This document shows, piece after piece, positions 1 through 59,088 of a DNA stretch of 64,000 nucleotides; positions within the stretch are counted from its first letter, which is position 1, and each line of letters opens with the position of its first letter. The stretch spans positions 4,650,001 through 4,714,000 of the forward strand of contig NW_024468912.1 in NCBI RefSeq assembly GCF_011745365.1. The letters are read 5' to 3'. The position numbers and the translations under genes were made by a program. The notes beneath the pieces were generated by a model. It was not told the DNA's origin. It ran no database searches and was given only the letters and a program-made list of their open reading frames with translations. Source of the DNA: Cryphonectria parasitica EP155 (lineage: Eukaryota; Ascomycota; Sordariomycetes; Diaporthales; Cryphonectriaceae).

Positions 1-650
1 TGCAGCTTTGCTATACATGTATTCCCTTGTCGTAATAATGGAAGACCATGCCCTCATTGCCTTTGCTTAAAGAGCAATCCCGCATTTCGAGTAACAATAG
101 CAAAGATGATGACGGCCAATCATATAATGGTCACGACAAAGAGGGGGATCAACAATGGGCAGAACTGTGGCCATTGTCTGACTTCTCAATAGCACACTCA
201 CAAAGAGGATTGTCCTGTCCGCCATTTAACGGTAATTGTGGTGCTCGATTGCGTCACAATAGACGGCCCCGTGTGAGAGTCGATGACTAGAGCCGCGTGG
301 GACAGATGAAACTTTTGGCGAGTGGGACAAATGTAACTCAGACTCACTGGGAAATATGAGTCTGGTTCGGAGGGAATAAGGTGCCATAAGGCATCGTTTG
401 TTATTTGATCTGGCGCGGCTCACAACTTCAAGGTCTCAGTCCACATGTCGTTGGCCTGGCCAAACCCCTAGAACAACTTTCAGTTCTAGCAGAAACGGAA
501 AATATTGAGATAAGACGTCCTCAGTCACCAGTCAAGCTGACAAAAAGGCATACATGAAATTGTGCACGGCAAGATGGAAAGTTGGAAGAAACAAAAAGAA
601 AAGAAAGGAAAAAAATAAATAAAAAAGTAATCGAAGATCGACGGGAATTG
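1..650. other. Intergenic, no gene recognised
   Basis: Only short open frames with no recognisable protein features. The A-rich part around 600-630, read on the minus strand, gives T-runs (TTTTTT at 626-621, with further T-rich sequence after it) just beyond the tRNA gene; these fit an RNA polymerase III terminator for that gene. Confidence 0.6.
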
Positions 651-803
651 AGCCCGACGTGGGGGTCGAACTAGAAGCTATTGTTAGACAGTGTAATAAC
701 CACATCTTGACGAACGATTTGAACATACCCCACAACCTTGAGATTTTGTCAGAATCGGAAACTCTGTAAGAGTCTCACGCTCTACCGATTGAGCTAGCCG
801 GGC
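651..803 (-). tRNA. tRNA-Lys(CTT) with an anticodon intron and a second, spliceosomal-looking insertion in the T-arm
   Basis: Read from 803 downward. The acceptor stem GCCCGGC pairs with GTCGGGC at 658-652 (one G-T pair). The D-arm is GCTC/GAGC, and box A (TAGCTCAATCGG) is intact. The anticodon arm is TGAGA/TCTCA with loop CTCTTA, giving anticodon CTT. An intron of about 22 nt follows position 37, the usual eukaryotic tRNA-intron site. The T-stem strand GTGGG is then separated from its loop and partner (TTCGACC, CCCAC) by 58 nt at 728-671. That segment starts GTATGT, contains TCTAAC and ends TTCTAG. Removing both inserts gives a canonical tRNA-Lys cloverleaf with a 7-nt T-loop; with the second insert kept, box B is split. 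T-runs downstream at 626-621 suit Pol III termination. It could be a functional gene with an unusual intron or a disrupted copy. Confidence 0.85.
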
Positions 804-1024: not shown

Positions 1025-3940
1025 TCAGACAGACTCCATCGTGACATTCAAACCGGTATCAGCCAAGTCACCGCCATGCTCCAGCAACGCAAATGTATAC
1101 TCGCCCTTCTCCAGCACCCACTCATCCCAGCGGTTGATGATTGTCAGATAGCGGTCGACCTCAAGTTCCATGCTGACGCTGACCTTGTCCCCCGCGGCGA
1201 CATCAACCCGCTGAAACGCGACGAGCTGCTTCACCGGCTGCACGATGCTGGAGACCCGCCCGAGGACGTACACTTGGAGCACATAGCTTCCATCGATGAC
1301 ACCATCATTCCTTACTCTCGCTGAAAAGGCGATGGTATCCCCAGAGGTAAATACGAGTCCTCCGTCCTGGCTGCTGGCGGTGAAGTCGGATACACTGAAC
1401 GAGGCGAAGGAAAGCCCGTACCCGAACGGATAGCACGGCTGGGACCCGACATCGAGATACTTGATCTTCCTGCCCAAACTCTTGTAGTTGTAGTAGATCG
1501 GTATCTGTCCGACATGCCGTGGAACACTCACGGGCAGCCTCCCCCCAGGATTGACCTTGCCGAACAAGACGTCAGCGATCGCCTGTCCGCCGCTCTGCCC
1601 AGGAAACCAGGTACTCAGGACTGCAGCGCTCTGATCATAGTACTCGGCAATGGCGAACGGTCGGCCGCCCTGCAGCACGAGGACGACGGGCTTGTTAAGG
1701 GCGTAGATGGCTGTGGCAAGTTTGTCCTGGCTAGGGGCGAGGCCCAGCGTGGCGCGATCACCACTCTCGCCGTCGCTGTTCCAGGCGGCGCCCACGGCGA
1801 GCACGATGACATCTGCGGACTCGGCAAGCTGCACAGCCTGGGAGACGGCATCGTCGGCCGGGTCGCTGCTGACGAGGTTCCAGAACAGCAGGAGCTGCGA
1901 GTTGAGAGAGACCACATTCTCCGTCTTCTTGTAGAGGTTGAAGGCTTGGTACTCGATGCGAATATCGTAAGTCTCACCCGCTCTGAACATAAACGGAGCA
2001 GAGCCTTCAGGTGGAAGTGTGCTGTTCACCTGGATGTAGTCAAACTGCTGAATGTTGCCCAGGATGTTATTGTCGGCAGTCAAAGGATTGCCCCACGATG
2101 TAACTGGGTTTCCGTTGACGAAGAGCTTCGATGTAGTATTGGCGCCGACTGCCACACCGATCCAGCCGTTCGTGTCGACATCTACAGGTGAGGTCAGGCG
2201 GCCCTCCCATATGGCGCTGAAATTGTTGGACGGCAGGCCCGGCGGTGGATAGATGCCCCAGTCCAACGCAGGGACCTCTGTTCTGGTAACCGTAGGGTTA
2301 CTGAAGTTGGTGGTTGCGAAATATGTTACCTGCAAACCTCCAGGCGTCCCATCGGGGGACGAAAGAAGATACGGAGGAATAACGTATTGGGCGTTGTATT
2401 CCCAGGTATTGGCTCCCCAGCTCGATACCAGCTTGAAGGGATGTTCTGGATTCTCGCTGTACGCCAGCAAAGCCTGACGGATTGTGTTGGCATTGTCGGC
2501 TGGGTATTCACCCCATTGACCTGAGTAGTCGCCATAATTTAGCACATCAGAGAAGGGCCCGATGAGGGCAACTGTGGATATGTTTTGCTCCACAGGTTTG
2601 AGGGGGAGCGTGGCGTCTCTGTTTTCGAGCAGAACGATACTCCGCTGGCTGGCTTCCAGAGCCAGACCCTTGTTATCCTGGACGGTCTGGATAGGATCGG
2701 TGCCTTCTGAGATGAAGGGATTCTCGAATAGACCAAGGTCCCACTTGACTCCCAAGATTGACTGTACATGAGATTGAAGTGTCGACAGCTCGAGCGAGCC
2801 ATTAGCGATCAGCTCTTTGGTGGTGTTGAGGAGAAGCTCGAGAGGCCAATCATAGAACTGTATCATCCCACCCGCCTCGTACCACTGCAGAATCGCATCG
2901 GCTGGCGAGCTCGCGACCTGATGCACGCTGTACAGCTCGTTCATGCCGGTATCATCAGCGATGACGAAGCCGTCAAAGCCCCAGTCCTGGAGTGCCCGAT
3001 ACAACTTGGGATTCACATGAGAAGGAATATCGTCGAACTCATTGTAAGACATCATGACACCCCTGACGCCACCAAGTTGCACGACGGCCTTGAAGGGAGT
3101 GAGGAGGTCCTGGAAGACCTGCCGATTCCCATGGCCCATGAAGGGAGCGGCATTTCTCCCAGCCTGCGGTGCGCCATGTGCGGCAAAGTGCTTCATGACG
3201 GGCACCACAGCATCCGGCTCAGACCAGGACCCGTTTTTAGACAGCCCAGACGAATAGGCGACGCCCATGTGCGACGTCAACACCTTGTCTTCGCCCCATG
3301 CTTCCTGCATCCTCCCCCACCTCGGGTCCTGGCCGATGTCGAGCACCGGGGAGAAGCAGGCGTGGATGCCAATGGACCGTGCCTCGGTTCCGATGGCGCG
3401 TCCGACGCGGTAGACGAGATCCGTGTCGAAGCTTGCTGAGAGGCCGAGGCTCTGGGGAAACATGGACTGCTTGAAGGAGCCGACGGCATGGAGGCATTCG
3501 CCAAAATGCATAAAGGGCACCTTGAGGCGTGCCTTGTCCAGGTTGAGCTGCTGCACCTCGTTGTAGTGGGAGGTGTTGAGGGAATACCAGTCGTGCATGT
3601 GGCCGACGGCGGAGGCTGGGCTGAACCTCATCGTGTAGTCATAGAGCTCGTCCCTGGACTCAACCCCGACGATGTCGTCGCCAAAGGTCAGATGCAGCTG
3701 TAAGACCAGATCCTCGACTGTCATGTTGGCCACGACGGCGTTGACGAAAGCATCTCTGCCCAGGGTGGCGCCGTGAACGCCCGTGTCTGGGTTCCATTGC
3801 GTACTTGGATAGGGATAGGATGGTAGTGGTTGTTGTTGCTGTTGCTGTCGCTGCAGCCACTGATCTGCCGAGGTGCCTTCTCCTATGAACAGGACCAGAA
3901 CCAGCAGGCCAAGCCAAGAGGCCGCAGTTGAGAGAGCCAT
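1025..3940 (-). CDS. Secreted glycoside hydrolase family 3 enzyme (beta-glucosidase/beta-xylosidase type) with PA14 insert
   Basis: Single exon, 971 aa. The ATG at 3940 was chosen over an upstream in-frame codon because it begins a clean signal peptide (about residues 1-24, hydrophobic LGLLVLVLF core). A GH3 N-terminal barrel follows, with the substrate-binding KHFAAHG motif and VIADDTGMNEL, in which Asp329 is the likely catalytic nucleophile (the usual SDW is ADD here). Next comes the alpha/beta sandwich domain, interrupted at about residues 534-665 by a PA14-like segment (GGLQVTYF to YDIRIEYQAF). The C-terminus (about 890-971) is a fibronectin-III-like domain. Family knowledge says GH3 retaining enzymes release terminal beta-linked sugars from plant or fungal glycans outside the cell; the exact substrate cannot be told from sequence. 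Several N-glycosylation sequons (NTS, NGS, NFS) fit secretion. A glutamine run lies just after the signal peptide. Confidence 0.93.
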   Translation of the reverse strand: MALSTAASWLGLLVLVLFIGEGTSADQWLQRQQQQQQPLPSYPYPSTQWNPDTGVHGATLGRDAFVNAVVANMTVEDLVLQLHLTFGDDIVGVESRDELYDYTMRFSPASAVGHMHDWYSLNTSHYNEVQQLNLDKARLKVPFMHFGECLHAVGSFKQSMFPQSLGLSASFDTDLVYRVGRAIGTEARSIGIHACFSPVLDIGQDPRWGRMQEAWGEDKVLTSHMGVAYSSGLSKNGSWSEPDAVVPVMKHFAAHGAPQAGRNAAPFMGHGNRQVFQDLLTPFKAVVQLGGVRGVMMSYNEFDDIPSHVNPKLYRALQDWGFDGFVIADDTGMNELYSVHQVASSPADAILQWYEAGGMIQFYDWPLELLLNTTKELIANGSLELSTLQSHVQSILGVKWDLGLFENPFISEGTDPIQTVQDNKGLALEASQRSIVLLENRDATLPLKPVEQNISTVALIGPFSDVLNYGDYSGQWGEYPADNANTIRQALLAYSENPEHPFKLVSSWGANTWEYNAQYVIPPYLLSSPDGTPGGLQVTYFATTNFSNPTVTRTEVPALDWGIYPPPGLPSNNFSAIWEGRLTSPVDVDTNGWIGVAVGANTTSKLFVNGNPVTSWGNPLTADNNILGNIQQFDYIQVNSTLPPEGSAPFMFRAGETYDIRIEYQAFNLYKKTENVVSLNSQLLLFWNLVSSDPADDAVSQAVQLAESADVIVLAVGAAWNSDGESGDRATLGLAPSQDKLATAIYALNKPVVLVLQGGRPFAIAEYYDQSAAVLSTWFPGQSGGQAIADVLFGKVNPGGRLPVSVPRHVGQIPIYYNYKSLGRKIKYLDVGSQPCYPFGYGLSFASFSVSDFTASSQDGGLVFTSGDTIAFSARVRNDGVIDGSYVLQVYVLGRVSSIVQPVKQLVAFQRVDVAAGDKVSVSMELEVDRYLTIINRWDEWVLEKGEYTFALLEHGGDLADTGLNVTMESV

Positions 3941-4559
3941 CTTGGTGGTTGTGAAGGGCTCATTCTGCTTGTTGTTGTCGTGCTTGACACGGCACAGGTT
4001 GGGGAAGCAACAAGTATAGTGCAAGTTGCCATCATGTTGGATCAACAGTGAGCAACGTTACAGTCCGAGGCTAGCTTGGACGGGGTCTCGTGTGATCCAC
4101 CGGACAATACAGGGCCTGTCAAGCATTCGAAGGTGGAGTTTTGTTCCCAAGTTTGGTGATGCCGTCGCCGGCGCGGCGATAACACTGGGGGGTTGATGCG
4201 GGGGAGAGATTTAGGCCCTGCCTGGGCATGGCGTGGCAGGGGGTCGGTAGTTATGACCTGGAGTCACCGTCTGTTTAGGTGCTAGGGTTGTTCTATCCCT
4301 CCACTGTCTGGACTTTTTATCATACTTCTTTTTTCTTTGATGTCAAGATTTCAGGTGTTACGGCAGACGAGAATACCTTGGATATGTTTTCTTTCTCTCT
4401 TTTTTCTCTTCTAGTAATGTAAACAAGATACTGTAGTTTCTAAGATGAATCGAAACCACCCAGTCTAGGATTCAACACCAACCCAGACGCCGTATGCCCA
4501 ATGTACTGTGCCTCTGAACAATATGCATCGCCCCCAAACATCATCTACTCCTCGCCGAT
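3941..4559. other. Intergenic: promoter side of the GH3 gene
   Basis: Upstream of the GH3 start and downstream of the small minus-strand gene at 4560. It holds T/C-rich tracts (about 4310-4430). No open frame with protein character and no convincing binding site was seen. Confidence 0.5.
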
Positions 4560-29342: not shown

Positions 29343-32006
29343 CTATACAATCTTGATCGTGCGACAAGATAATTTGGTGAAGGATCTGTCGGTAGGCCCC
29401 TGATAAAAGTCGTACAGGCTCATCGGGCCTGAATCATCGTGGCCGCCCGACTGCGTACTATCCTTATCATCGCTCGGTTCATGTCTACTGCCTTCTGGTT
29501 GACTTTCTTTGGTTTTGTCAGTCGGTCTCGGGGTTTGGCTTCCCAAGCGTCTTTTGCTGTGCTTGAAAAGAGTCGCTATTTTGCTGGTCAGTCTACTGGT
29601 CTTGATATCTCCCATTTTAAACGCTATCGGTAAAGCCATGAAACCAGAGAACGTGATCCTGCCAGCTCTTTGAAAGACACCTGGGGAGTCCGTCTTGTCT
29701 AGCAGCAGTCCTTGCAAAGCCAGATGTTCGTTTTGACGGTCGCCAAATACAGCGACGAGGAGGCAGTAGCCGCTCCACTCAGTTGACTCTTTCAACGCAT
29801 CGCCCTGCTTGCTTTCACCGTCTTCGTCGCCGGCGTCATCCCAGGCATCCAGGTGCCATGAGAGTTGGTTCAAGAACATGATAGCGTTGTCATCATAGCC
29901 CCTCTCACTGCCGTCGACGAAGAGACGCTGCTTGTGTGACTGCTGAGGCATATACCACTTGTCGGTCTTGGGATCCCTGGGCAGGCGCGTGCGGACGACA
30001 CGGATGAAACGCACAAAACCTCTCAGTTCTATGGATGCTCCCGGCTGGACCATGGCAAATGGAGAAGGCGTGGATGGTGTTACATTGATGTCAATGACAT
30101 TGGCGATGATGTGTTGAATGCTGGTATCGGTCTCCGTGTCAAAGCGGACGGCCGAGCACGATGATAGCCACGACCAAGACGGCGCGACATAGGCGGCGCG
30201 CACACCCTTCTGTCGCACTCTTCGTTTGCTCGACCAAAGCAGGACAGCGGGCAGAGCCGAGGACCAAAAACCCACAACGTAGCGATCTTCAGGAATCAGA
30301 TCCGCAAACTCGGCGGCCAGGCCGGCAAGCGCAGGCAGCCGGTCTTTCTCGAAGCTCAGGGCTCTGGCGGAATAGTCCTCGCATAGATCGAGCCAGGCTC
30401 GGTGCCGGGCCTTTTGATCGTGTCCCGTCGACAGGCTGACACGTTCGTAGGCTCCCACCCCAAAGAAGCGGCTGTTGTCAAAGGGTAGGCTTGCCGCATA
30501 CGTCTCGCACGCAATGTAGGGCTTAGCCGGGCAGCATTCCCAAAGGACCTCGTGCTTGGTCAAGTGCAGCGCCCGCCGGGCCAGATGGCGCTCTTGGAAG
30601 ACCCAGGCGCGCTGCGACAGAGGAGCCTTGGCGATCCACTTGAAGATGTCGTGCTCATCCGTGGCGACCCACCACGACCGCTGCAGGTTGGCCATCTGCA
30701 GCTTAAAGGGTGTGACCTGCGCCGCGGGGCGGTCATGAAGACAGCCGCTGCGGGCGTCATCTGAGGCGTCGGCCGAGATGTTGAGCAGCCCATGCTTGTA
30801 TACTTTGCACATGAGGGGAGCCTCGCGGTTCCAGTCGGCCATGCTTGGCGAGTCCTGGACGATACACAACGAGTCCATCCACAGCCAGCGCACGTTGAAC
30901 CACTGAGCAATCTCCATGGCGTCTCGCAGCAGGGGTGGCAGGTCGTCAAACAAAACGCCCTCCCGCTCGTACTGGTCCTTGTTCTCCTCGAGCAGGCGCG
31001 GTAGTCCCGCCTCGCGCCAGTCGCCCCAGCAGTGGCTGAGCGTGATGTATTCGTGATGGGCGGCAAAGAGCTCGGGGCGATTCTCTCGAGAGACCACAGG
31101 TACACTGCCTCCCGGGTTGGCGTGGCTCAGATCCAGAAGTCTCGTCGGCAGCCATAATGGGTCCTTGGCGATGCACGTATCGTGTTCACCGTTGCAATTT
31201 CTTCTGCACTGATCCAGCCAGTTCACCGCCATGTCCTTAGCACAACGCATACTGGAGCCCCTAGGCATAACTTCGAGGCGACTGGATGATGAAATATCGT
31301 CAGCCGGCAGCTCACGCATAAACAAAGCGTCGTGCTTGGGAGACGGCCAGAGGCGCAGTTTGAAAATCTGCTTATAATTCTTCTCAGTCCTTTCCGGCTC
31401 AGGGTTGTACGCCAGGGCACATGCCAAGTACATATGTTCGACTGCATCCGTGGATGCCTCTGGCGGCTTCGAGGTCGATGAGTCGACGTATTCGAGGTTG
31501 GAGTCCAGCACCAGCTCGATTCGACTGTTTTTCAAAAACTCAAGGCATAGAAAAAACTCGAGTTCTATGTGCGCACGGATGAGAGAGCACAAGTGGCAGC
31601 CGCGCACGTCCGAGTGCAAGAGCGACAGCAGGTTCCAGTGCAGAACCACGTTGGGTGCTAGCCTGTCTTTTTTCTCGTAGAAGTTGGCGACAGAAGTCTT
31701 TTGCTCGAGATACCGGGCTAGATAGCCGAGCGCACTGGCGCAGGCGTTGCAGAGGCTCTGGCCCGTCTCGACGCGGATCAGGTCGGCGTCTTGCGTGCGC
31801 GACGGACCTTTACCCTTTCTAGCAATTCTTTGCAATCCACCCTCGCCCGTTTCCATCGCGAAATCGTCATCGCTGACCGGCCTTGGCTCAAATGAGGGCC
31901 GGACCGGGAAAAGAACGAGGTTGCCAGGTTGCAGCGCCCCGACAAATACTGTCTTGATGATGTCCAGATGGTCATTCGTAGCTCTTATGTCCTTGGCGAT
32001 GAGCAT
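29343..32006 (-). CDS. HET-domain protein, large
   Basis: Single exon, 887 aa from the ATG at 32006; the frame extends eight codons further to a GTG, and an unseen upstream exon is possible because an AG acceptor-like site sits at that edge. The N-terminal third has Cys pairs (SLCNACASALGYLARYL and VRGCHLCSLIRAH), usual for this protein class. The HET domain begins near residue 318 (EYITLSHCWGDW), then PPLLRDAMEIAQWFNVRWLW, MDSLCIVQDS and YKHGLLNISADASDDARSGC. The tail carries the SWSWLSS motif and ends in a charged disordered region (residues about 820-870). Role by family: non-self recognition and cell death. It and the HET gene at 22955 share the fold but diverge in sequence, so they are not a recent tandem copy. 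Confidence 0.88.
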   Translation of the reverse strand: MLIAKDIRATNDHLDIIKTVFVGALQPGNLVLFPVRPSFEPRPVSDDDFAMETGEGGLQRIARKGKGPSRTQDADLIRVETGQSLCNACASALGYLARYLEQKTSVANFYEKKDRLAPNVVLHWNLLSLLHSDVRGCHLCSLIRAHIELEFFLCLEFLKNSRIELVLDSNLEYVDSSTSKPPEASTDAVEHMYLACALAYNPEPERTEKNYKQIFKLRLWPSPKHDALFMRELPADDISSSSRLEVMPRGSSMRCAKDMAVNWLDQCRRNCNGEHDTCIAKDPLWLPTRLLDLSHANPGGSVPVVSRENRPELFAAHHEYITLSHCWGDWREAGLPRLLEENKDQYEREGVLFDDLPPLLRDAMEIAQWFNVRWLWMDSLCIVQDSPSMADWNREAPLMCKVYKHGLLNISADASDDARSGCLHDRPAAQVTPFKLQMANLQRSWWVATDEHDIFKWIAKAPLSQRAWVFQERHLARRALHLTKHEVLWECCPAKPYIACETYAASLPFDNSRFFGVGAYERVSLSTGHDQKARHRAWLDLCEDYSARALSFEKDRLPALAGLAAEFADLIPEDRYVVGFWSSALPAVLLWSSKRRVRQKGVRAAYVAPSWSWLSSCSAVRFDTETDTSIQHIIANVIDINVTPSTPSPFAMVQPGASIELRGFVRFIRVVRTRLPRDPKTDKWYMPQQSHKQRLFVDGSERGYDDNAIMFLNQLSWHLDAWDDAGDEDGESKQGDALKESTEWSGYCLLVAVFGDRQNEHLALQGLLLDKTDSPGVFQRAGRITFSGFMALPIAFKMGDIKTSRLTSKIATLFKHSKRRLGSQTPRPTDKTKESQPEGSRHEPSDDKDSTQSGGHDDSGPMSLYDFYQGPTDRSFTKLSCRTIKIV

Positions 32007-33280
32007 GGTGAGAAAGAGTATGCCGTTCACTGCCGTCTGGTTTCGTTTTCAGCAGACAGATATTGAATATGAAGCGGGATTGCACGAGTTGTCAGATGCA
32101 CATAGCTTCGTGAGGGAGGTTGCTTATTGCAGCTGCAGTACCGTAGAGGGTGGCTAAAAGCTGACATGCTTACGTATAATGTTGACCTGTTCTGGGGGGG
32201 AAAGAAGCATTACCAGGATCCTGCTAACTCCTATCAACTAGCATGCAAGCAGTAAGCGAAACACAGCCTCTCACCTCTTCACGCCAAGCATACGCAAATA
32301 TACATGCATTGTCAGGCTAAGAGGCAATATCAGCTCGTGGGGTGGGGTTCTAATTGGAAAGAGGGAAATCTAATCGCTCAAAAAACAATCTACTCGACAT
32401 TAATACGGAAACTCCAATACTGTATAGATGGTACTTGTACGGAATGGTGGCAGTCAAGTAGAATATCTCTTGACAGAAGTAGTGTTTCGACCTTTGTCTG
32501 AGATGTTTATTCTCGACATGGTCACTCTATTGTTCTTCTTTCTTCAAACATGGAATTACAGAACCTGGAATCATTTTCCCTTCTTGTGAGATATGCACAT
32601 TGTAAAGATATAGTGACCGTCTCTTTTCCGCAGCCCTTTCATAGACAAGATATCTTTCGAACAGCAGCTCGCTTCAGGAAAATTAAATATTACCTACAAC
32701 ACTTTCTCATTTAACAGGCAAGACTGTTCTGGCACAGGATGCAAATACTTATGTAAGCACACCAACTGACCAGGTTCCATACTAGACCCCACAGGAGCTC
32801 AATTAGGGCCTCAGATAGCATGGCTGCCCCTGGCCTCGGCGCCTTATCATCTGAACCCCTCCTCGAGATCTTAGATCACAGCACCTCCACCCCGCCTAAA
32901 TATCTCGTGGGGTCGACAGCTAAGCTACAGCAAGCTACCGCATAACATCAGCCTGGGCCCATCTCAACATCTGTCTGCCCACTTCACTCTCATTTCAGGA
33001 CTTGAACTCACTCTCATTCACCCATCAAGACCTCAATCCAAAAAAAAACCACCATCATAACACCCCAGGCCATCATTACATTTGGCATTCTGAACCACAG
33101 ACATCACTGATCAACTGCCAGAAGACCTGAATCACCACCACCTCTCACGCCTCTTTACAAGGAGCTGAGAATTTACCTCCTCTTACGCAACCCAACCCCA
33201 CCTAGAAAATTCATCCATCTATCCAAAGGCAAACCTCGAAAGAAAAGAAAAACCAAGAAAGAGAAACCAAAAAAAACACC
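32007..33280. other. Intergenic, promoter of ureG
   Basis: 1.27 kb with no convincing gene. The last 250 bp are A/C-rich with A-runs (for example at 33040-33050 and 33240-33280) directly before the UreG start, a usual strong-promoter leader composition. Confidence 0.5.
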
Positions 33281-56453: not shown

Positions 56454-58545
56454 TCATCGCACCTGTCGCCTTTCTGGTGGCCGTGCAGCCTCGATCGCAG
56501 CCGTCTCCCTGGCCCTGTGAGGAATTCCAGCTGCATCCCGCGCCTGTCGCATATCCGCAAAGGTCAACCTGATATCCCGTGCGTACGGGCCAAAACTTTC
56601 GATAAGCTGCCGCAGAGCCTCCTTCAGCGTCTCCAAGACCGCATCTACCACCGGGCTCTCCCTAGAAGCGTCAAGCTCTGTCCAGTGCGCGGGGAAATCG
56701 TCCCTGAACTTCTCTAGCTTCACCGTCAGCGCTGTGAAGCTCCGGATGATGGTCGAAACATCGCGCTGCACATTTCCATAGTTGTCCTCCGCCAGGCTGT
56801 GCAGCGCCAGCTTGGTCACTGCAGATATGGCATTGATAAAGAGGCTTGGCTCCGCGTACGGCGCACCCAGCACAGCGACAGTGAGTCTCTGGTCAAGCGT
56901 ATTCCTAAAAGGCTTGCCGAATGGCGACTTCAGAAACTGTCTTGTCCATTTCTGTATCGGGCTGTGCAGATCGTCCGAGCTGGTCGCCTGCCTTGCCACC
57001 TCCTGTACCACTCCCTTGGCCTGGAAGTACCCCTTCTGCACAATAGGACTTAGCCGTGGCTCTTGGCCAGGCGACCGTACCGCGACTTTTCCGATGATGT
57101 TTTCGATTTTGCTCTTCTTGGTCGGCGTAGACAGGAGGATAGGGTCATTGCTGACCTGCAAAGACCGTTCTGTCGCAGCATTGGGGCCATTTGCAGCTGG
57201 CACAAGTTCCTTTGAAGGGGGTGTCGGCGCCTTGCCACAGTCATCAATTCTGGCCTCCATCTCCTTGACGATGTTGTGGCACAGCGCATAGACCTGGGAC
57301 CACGCTGGTCCATCCTTCCTGTCGATGTCTTGGTAGATAGCCTTTCGTCGAGGCCCAAAATCCCTAGCGATCAGGGCGAGCTCCCACATAGCAAAAGACT
57401 ACTAAGGTCAGCATAACGAGCTTTGGACAATCGGGTGCGTGGTCATGGTACCAACCTTGATATGCAGCTTCTTGCTCTTCAGGCCGTTCAATAAACTTCC
57501 GTTGGGATCTTTAGACTCGGAAGTCAAGGGATTCCCTAGCTTCAATGGCGGCCGGACCAGGAACATCGAGAACATCTTGATGCCGGCGAGCCACATGAAC
57601 AGCAGCATGAAGCCAGTGGAGAAGCAGCGCAACCACATCCAAGCGTTTACACTAGCCAGGGTGGCAGGGACCATGTTGGTCTTGGGCAAAGTGTAAAACG
57701 TCCGGAAGAACGCGAGGGCAGTGCGCCATGCCAAAGCGCGGAGCGTCATGCCTGACATGAAGTCTGGAAGCTTAGCCGCGTGGTATAGAATACCGCTAAA
57801 GACAAGGGCCGCTACCGATTGCATGGCGGCCAGACTCGCAAGAGCAGGCACGTCGTTGCTGAGACGTGTCTGCCAGGCGACCTTGTCATTTGTTGCTGCT
57901 GGCTGTTCCTCCTTGAGCTTGACGGGTCGCAGGAGAAGCCTGTCATCGTCGCGATAGATGTGCAGTATGCCCTGTAGCAGGCCAAACAGCAGGCAGTGGA
58001 CGGTGTAAAAGATGGGCTTCTCGTTCAGCCGTGCCCTGTCACCCGACTGGATCACGACCCAACTGAGGTCGTTTGCCGTCGAAGTCCACAAGTAAACCTG
58101 GCTAAACAGCAGAGACGACACCGTGTACGACACGATGGCCTCCAGTGTCTGCGAGGTGGCAGCATATTTCAAGAACGTCTGATAGCCGGAATTCGAGGTT
58201 CGTATGCCCACATGGTATTGGGCGATTCTCAGGATGACCACGGTAAGGCCGCAGAGGAAGATGAAGAATGCTCGTATGCCGGTCGGGCCAATTGGGAAAA
58301 TTAACCAAAAGACTGATGTGAGAGATATTAGCATCGAGGAGGATTGAAAGTGGCGGTGGAACAGGACGGGAATGTGACTTACAAGACCACCAGCTGGAGA
58401 AGATCGCCCTAGGAGACCTGCAGACGGCGAAAAGAAGGGACTCGACATATGCGATGACCAGAAGGATGGTGGTAGTAGAAGAGAAGCGTCGCTGCAGTGA
58501 TGCCTGCAAAAAGTCCTTATACGGAGCCCGCCTGACAGGAGCCAT
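56454..58545 (-). CDS. NDC1: Nucleoporin / spindle-pole-body membrane protein NDC1
   Basis: Exons 58545-58383, 58312-57456 and 57398-56454; introns 70 and 57 nt; 654 aa. The N-terminus MAPVRRAPYKDFLQASLQRR is typical of fungal Ndc1. Six hydrophobic segments occupy the first half, including FWLIFPIGPTGIRAFFIFLC and RCFSTGFMLLFMWLAGIKMF. The conserved SWVVIQSGDRARLNEKPIFY and LKSKKLHIKSFAMWELALIA join lies at the second splice. The C-terminal half is a soluble helical domain (LTVAVLGAPYAEPSLFINAI, TALTVKLEKFRDDFPAHWTE). NDC1 anchors nuclear pore complexes and, in yeasts, the spindle pole body in the nuclear envelope. It is head-to-head with a syntaxin gene, 543 bp apart. Confidence 0.92.
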
Positions 58546-59088
58546 CTTGACCAGCGCGCATGGTCGGGTGAAGAAGACGCCCTAGAGTTTGGTGGAGGGA
58601 ACAAGAAAAGGGTGGTAGAGGAAGAGGTGAGGTCAAAGATGCAAGTCGAAAGGCTGTAAACAAGAGCTTGAAAAAGAAGTGGAACCTTCTGCTGGTCGCC
58701 TCGTCGCGGCACGCTGCAGGCAGAGGTCAAAGACACGCGCTTCCTGACAGTGAAAGACATCGGGGCCGGGGCCCCTGTACAAGCCACCTCCAACAGGGCC
58801 ACTAACTACTGCTACTGCAACGGTACTATGTACAATACAGGCACCCACTACACTAGATATAGTGAATTACGTAACCCTGCCAAGCCATGCCAGGCACCTG
58901 GTTTGAGGGCCTGGAATACGCAGACTTGAGACGTCACCAGATAACCCTCACCCGCCGCCATATCATCCTTTGCATTTCCATGAATCTTCAGCGCCTGTTG
59001 TTCCCTCCTTCGTACACTGCTCAAGACCATTGGCTACATCTACCACACCAGAGTGCAATTACTTGACTGCTGATCAGCCAACGCAGCG
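58546..59088. promoter_or_regulatory. Divergent intergenic region, NDC1 / syntaxin
   Basis: 543 bp between start codons. No specific element recognised. Confidence 0.5.

Follow-up and report, generated by a model that had tools for sequence, protein, structure and literature searches.

Probable spliceosomal introns in the T-arm of tRNA-Lys(CTT) genes of Cryphonectria parasitica

Three of the six tRNA-Lys(CTT) genes detected in the genome of Cryphonectria parasitica (43.8 Mb in 17 contigs) are interrupted at the identical nucleotide of the T-arm by an insert with the donor, branch and acceptor motifs of an mRNA intron, each of the three lying on a different contig. We consider it likely that this insert is a U2-type spliceosomal intron, kept splice-competent in a working Pol III tRNA gene. 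Judged by sequence, these are very probably true spliceosomal introns of Pol III tRNA genes, which would make the tRNA a new host for a known kind of intron; splicing of the inserts to give a working tRNA would best explain the findings. In teaching, spliceosomal introns and tRNA introns are kept apart, and we know of no role of the spliceosome in making a tRNA. No spliceosomal intron in a tRNA gene was found among the titles and abstract openings that searches of the open-access literature listed, and a paper from 2026 treats tRNA splicing as spliceosome-independent (PMC13149111).

The tRNA-Lys(CTT) genes and their T-arm inserts

The window, that is, the whole stretch of 64,000 nucleotides analysed (C4:4650001-4714000), carries one of the interrupted genes on its minus strand (Table 1). 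Read from 803 down to 651, this gene consists of 37 nt, a canonical intron of 22 nt, 16 nt ending in GTGGG, the insert, and TTCGACCCCCACGTCGGGCT. The preliminary description of this DNA had placed a 58-nt insert of the form GTATGT...CTAAC...TAG at 671-728 in the T-arm of a tRNA-Lys gene, which was confirmed to the base. The insert lies at 53/54 and hence away from 37/38, the canonical position of tRNA introns. Its branch A is 13 nt before the last G. The splice cut is ambiguous by one base, as a G may stand on either side of it, and the register is settled by the GT-AG rule, which fixes which G it is. A run of a tRNA finder with and without the insert had also been proposed; ARAGORN reported no tRNA with the insert present and found one once the flanks had been joined in a script. 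It misnamed the anticodon on the joined flanks because of the 37/38 intron, and the Rfam alignment of the intact copies puts CUU in the anticodon loop.

Table 1. Features of the tRNA-Lys(CTT) locus (window positions) and related loci in the genome (contig positions)
Feature	Position	Strand	Basis or occurrence
Two-intron tRNA-Lys(CTT) gene, mature tRNA of 73 nt	651..803	-	mature sequence identical in 6/6 copies
Canonical 22-nt tRNA intron at 37/38	745..766	-	also in the other five copies, there 19 or 22 nt long
T-arm intron of spliceosomal type (58 nt), between positions 53 and 54	671..728	-	sequence and sibling copies
Donor site GTATGT	723..728	-	identical in 3/3 insert-bearing copies
Branch site CTAAC	683..687	-	CTAAC and TTAAC in the other two copies
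Acceptor site TAG	671..673	-	CAG in both other copies
Box B GTTCGACCC, completed by the last intron G	663..671	-	all three insert-bearing copies
Box A region TAGCTCAATCGG	785..796	-	by the box A consensus
T6 run, likely Pol III terminator, 25 nt past the tRNA 3' end	621..626	-	sequence
Trailer CAATTCCCGTC	640..650	-	same in six of six Lys(CTT) copies
Copies with the insert	C4 (window); C5 near 619,500; C1 near 5,229,900		
Copies without the insert	C1 near 4,760,100; C9 near 2,714,650 (L004); C2 near 2,351,950		
56-nt GT-AG intron in the U6 snRNA gene	L090 1484-1539 = C4:3111668-3111723		sequence and Rfam alignment

A genome search with window positions 600-800 as the query gave nine matches at six places. 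This look for other tRNA-Lys(CTT) copies, which had likewise been suggested, thus yielded six genes, three with the insert and three intact. The 73-nt mature sequence is one and the same in all six, and each has an intron of 19 or 22 nt at 37/38. The inserts measure 58, 59 and 58 nt in the copies on C4, C5 and C1, respectively. All three begin with GTATGT; in the same order, their branch motifs are CTAAC, CTAAC and TTAAC, their acceptors TAG, CAG and CAG, and the distances from the branch A to the last G 13, 12 and 12 nt. TTAAC is listed among fungal branch motifs in PMC5677156. As in U2-type introns, a GTRNGT-type donor and a YAG acceptor are present in every insert, together with a CTRAY/TTRAY branch at a suitable distance from the acceptor. 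An actin-family gene of the same genome (PF00022, C1:6732551-6733731) has a GTATGT...CTGAC...TAG intron with the same donor as the tRNA inserts.

The donor-to-branch middles share nothing beyond chance: in pairwise alignments, 498, 1457 and 617 of 2000 shuffles scored equal or higher, so that the three interiors resemble each other no more than shuffled sequences do. Retained signals around a diverged interior are again what a U2-type intron presents, a pattern that would also fit three separate insertions. In shuffles of each insert, the donor frequency multiplied by the frequency of branch plus acceptor came to 1.1e-6 to 1.7e-6; on this product and the presence of three copies, a chance origin of the splice-like signals was rejected. 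An error of assembly or sequencing was rejected as well and has a negligible probability, since the three inserts stand on three separate contigs and differ in their flanks as well as in their interiors.

U6 snRNA is made by Pol III, and its introns in fungi are spliced. Tani and Ohshima reportedly described spliceosomal introns in U6 snRNA genes of fungi (fission yeast and others) in 1989, and Canzler et al. are said to have treated the introns of U6 snRNA genes in 2016. In the genome studied here, the Rfam search for U6 (47 of 3351 candidates scored) listed three matches, one of them over the cut-off. This match reads ...GGTCAATTTGAAACGATAC, then a 56-nt insert of the form GTGAGT...CTAAC...CAG, then AGAGAAGATTAGCATGG..., and its Rfam alignment is poor up to the junction and good from AGAGAAG on, because the model is forced through the intron. 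The branch A lies 12 nt from the intron end, as in two of the three tRNA inserts. A match to box B, GTTCGATTC, lies within the U6 intron. With this GT-AG intron in U6, the two sibling inserts, their unlike middles and their intact splice signals, the earlier suggestion of an mRNA-type intron is well supported.

Pol III signals and routes of processing

The box B consensus is GWTCRANNC. All three insert-bearing copies match it in full with GTTCGACCC. Box B survives the insertion because the last intron G, followed by the exon sequence TTCGACCC, restores GTTCGACCC; the earlier view that it is split was not borne out, and only the spacing between the boxes grows. The distance between the end of box A and box B increases from 52, 52 and 55 bp to 113, 111 and 110 bp with the insert, and this doubling counts against reading the loci as working genes. 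A second full box B match, GTTCAAATC, lies inside the window insert (716-724, minus strand) and in neither of the other two inserts.

Past the tRNA, the first run of at least five T in the insert-bearing copies is a T6 at +25, +25 and +21, and no run of five or more T occurs inside any of the six genes, the insert on C1 having one T4. TATA(A/T) is found upstream of the copies on C5 and C1; the window copy has CATATG only, which says little, because TATA(A/T) stands within 75 bp upstream of only 31 of 62 tRNAs examined. By sequence only, the insert-bearing loci thus possess box A, box B, a T-run and, after splicing, an intact cloverleaf, as Pol III tRNA genes do.

We infer that such a gene is transcribed and spliced as follows. 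Pol III would transcribe it by means of box A, the intron-completed box B and the T6 terminator; the tRNA splicing endonuclease and ligase would remove the 37/38 intron from the precursor; and the spliceosome would remove the T-arm intron, thereby restoring a T-stem of 5 bp and a T-loop of 7 nt.

Transcription by Pol II, either by read-through from a neighbour or from a promoter of its own, would account for splicing in another way, the product being something other than a tRNA or a Pol II-made tRNA. The window tRNA does lie downstream of the frame at 1025-4057 and shares its strand; this frame encodes a GH3 protein whose best named matches are in Diaporthales (Discula, Cytospora and Diaporthe; 73-78% identity among the matches listed). 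However, there is no open frame of at least 150 aa within 1.5 kb of the copy on C5, so the arrangement of a tRNA behind a frame is not common to the copies, and the Pol III boxes and T-runs have been kept. We regard Pol II transcription as very improbable.

It is also quite improbable that the tRNA splicing endonuclease excises the insert as an ectopic tRNA intron, of the sort known from archaea, nucleomorphs and a red alga, and that its mRNA-like signals arose by chance. Introns at 53/54 in archaea and T-arm introns in nucleomorphs are on record in PMC4090602, and the same Lys(CTT) gene already has an intron of the endonuclease type. Cutting by the endonuclease would, however, leave the GTATGT, YTAAC and YAG of all three copies unexplained. 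An intron cut by this enzyme is expected to have a bulge-helix-bulge. A simple rule found none, counting 0-2 of the 4 central-helix pairs per insert whichever register was taken; the rule is weak, because the canonical intron used as a control also scored only 1 of 4. No shared fold was seen inside the inserts either: RNAalifold, a weak test here, recovered nothing beyond the T-stem and a single G-C pair for the three together, with no covariation, and single inserts folded no better than their shuffles (z of -0.17, -0.55 and -0.13).

Descent of the inserts and the search for further cases

Considering the inserts as spliced introns, we infer a single origin. Most likely, one ancestral Lys(CTT) gene gained the intron, with reverse splicing as a plausible route, and the intron would then have spread by gene duplication, remaining competent for splicing as its interior drifted. 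The occurrence of GTATGT as donor in all three inserts favours common descent. The probability of this donor is near 0.10 each, so two further matches come to near 0.01 by our arithmetic, with frequencies taken from 2022 introns of Fusarium, another genus, as given in PMC5677156. Taken together, preserved exons and splice signals around a freely drifting interior give the picture of a spliced intron, but three separate insertions without later selection could also yield unlike interiors.

The history of the copies is not simple. Trailer and terminator of the copies on C4 and C5 are closely alike up to TTTTTTATTTATTTTTTT, and the C5 trailer begins with 24 bases that the intact copy on C9 has as well; the C5 copy thus has part of its trailer in common with an intact gene, and gene conversion between copies is therefore possible. 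Conversion would help to keep the exons alike, but not the splice signals in inserts of differing interior. Together with the acceptor strand, the trailer CAATTCCCGTC can be written, by eye, as CGGG-CTCAATT-CCCG (window 640-658, minus strand; six of six copies), a hairpin similar to a T-arm and reminiscent of a second box B.

Alternatively, mRNA introns may have landed in spare tRNA genes, perhaps three times at a favoured site, leaving genes that are silent or give unprocessed RNA while the intact copies supply the tRNA, which we consider unlikely. Since three intact Lys(CTT) genes exist, those with the insert may be dispensable, and separate recent insertions would likewise give unlike interiors and intact signals. 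Moreover, according to a 2014 paper, eukaryotic tRNA genes with short D-arm or T-arm insertions mostly occur as single copies that are taken to be pseudogenes, nucleomorphs and Cyanidioschyzon excepted (PMC4090602). Against this stand the intact state of all 73 mature positions in the three insert-bearing copies and the retention of box A, box B and terminator, whereas two other tRNA remnants in the genome (Leu and Ile) look worn. GTATGT in all three would be unlikely for separate insertions (near 0.01 with the Fusarium frequencies), and gene conversion could keep the exons alike but not the intron signals. Of the grounds for a dead or decaying copy that had been named in advance, intact copies do exist, three in number, whereas siblings of the insert exist too and decay was not seen in this genome.

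Introner-like elements had been suggested as another source. A genome search with the three inserts matched only the inserts themselves, and an introner, with many near-identical genome copies, was rejected on this result and on the unlike middles; the suggestion is left with no support.

Further cases were sought with five patterns targeted at the same T-arm layout, and among their matches the Lys genes alone came up as tRNAs. The first insert-layout pattern matched the genome twice, both times in Lys copies, and its reversed control 0 times. The GTATGT pattern gave 5 matches (three in Lys copies) against 5 in the reversed control, the GTAAGT pattern 4 (none in Lys copies) against 4, the CTAAC branch pattern 5 (two in Lys copies) against 20, and the GTGAGT pattern 3 (none in Lys copies; judged as matched strings only) against 3. 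Except for the first pattern, the counts alone therefore show nothing, and it is the tRNA context that does. The nine non-Lys matches of the GTATGT, GTAAGT and CTAAC patterns were read with their flanks, and none was tRNA-like by eye. Mixed tRNA probes (4 and 35 matches) revealed no further T-arm insert within their partial coverage, the yeast-like probes finding little, and de novo intron mining in 341 kb was too noisy for use. An exon-plus-donor pattern had 9 matches in prokaryote genomes, none within a tRNA by eye, and 0 in viral contigs.

An Rfam scan of the window found no RNA family over the cut-off. The genome-wide Rfam tRNA search, which scored 63 of 990 first-look candidates (61 of them over the cut-off), listed none of the three insert-bearing genes. 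When the six loci (L001-L006) were scored, the intact copies reached 55.9, 55.9 and 55.6 bits and the copy on C5 reached 35.5 bits with a 66-nt loop, while the copies in the window and on C1 were absent at E up to 1. These scores show why such genes go unseen. tRNAscan-SE 2.0 is described as checking archaeal candidates for non-canonical introns (PMC8450103). ARAGORN did not recognise a tRNA-Leu remnant without its 5' part (L118, about 1470-1545; C6 near 80,815) or a changed tRNA-Ile copy (L125; C5 near 1,254,200). It gave a length of 80 nt for one member of a tandem tRNA-Thr(CGT) pair, the two lying about 80 bases apart (L012; C3 near 724,600).

Comparison with known intron-bearing RNAs

Like the inserts, fungal U6 introns are short, of the GT-AG kind and equipped with a CTAAC branch, and they interrupt a Pol III RNA that is short and structured; the U6 intron of this genome, at 56 nt, has the same branch spacing. 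However, U6 belongs to the spliceosome and a tRNA does not; accidental reverse splicing into U6 has an obvious route because U6 is a part of the spliceosome, whereas the T-arm site of the tRNA sits inside a tightly folded RNA. In the U6 gene of this genome, a box B lies within the intron, whereas in the tRNA genes it spans the 3' splice junction. Canonical nuclear introns at 37/38, one of which is present in the window gene and in all six copies, are removed by an enzyme other than the spliceosome. They differ from the T-arm inserts in position and have no mRNA splice signals.

The introns of fungal U3 snoRNA are also mRNA-type introns in a small structured RNA, albeit not a tRNA, and U3 and U6 are named in a 2017 paper as the only small structured RNAs so far known to be often interrupted by introns (PMC5832005). 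Ectopic introns of archaea, Cyanidioschyzon and nucleomorphs resemble the inserts in lying outside the anticodon loop, at 53/54 in archaea, and in that two introns may occur per tRNA gene. In contrast to the inserts, those of archaea and Cyanidioschyzon are tied to bulge-helix-bulge motifs, those of nucleomorphs measure 3-24 nt, and none in the three groups is described as GT-AG with a branch site, all according to PMC4090602 and PMC3978253.

A tRNA gene that needed both machines would show that a short and folded tRNA precursor is accessible to the spliceosome. From the sequences, it seems reasonably probable that half of the Lys(CTT) copies found would mature only by way of the spliceosome as well as the tRNA endonuclease, that part of the lysine tRNA supply would thereby be tied to pre-mRNA splicing, and that the inserts record intron gain in a Pol III RNA outside the spliceosome. 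If true, these genes would serve as a natural test of how introns are gained beyond mRNA and U6, and they would draw attention to tRNA genes that are missed by the finders.

Elsewhere in the window, a 901-aa frame lies at 29343-32048, relatives of which carry a HET (heterokaryon incompatibility) domain; its best match, from Nemania abortiva, is 52% identical, in contrast to the Diaporthales matches of the GH3 gene. An Ndc1-type nucleoporin is encoded at 56454-58805 on the minus strand, in two frames with an apparent intron between them.
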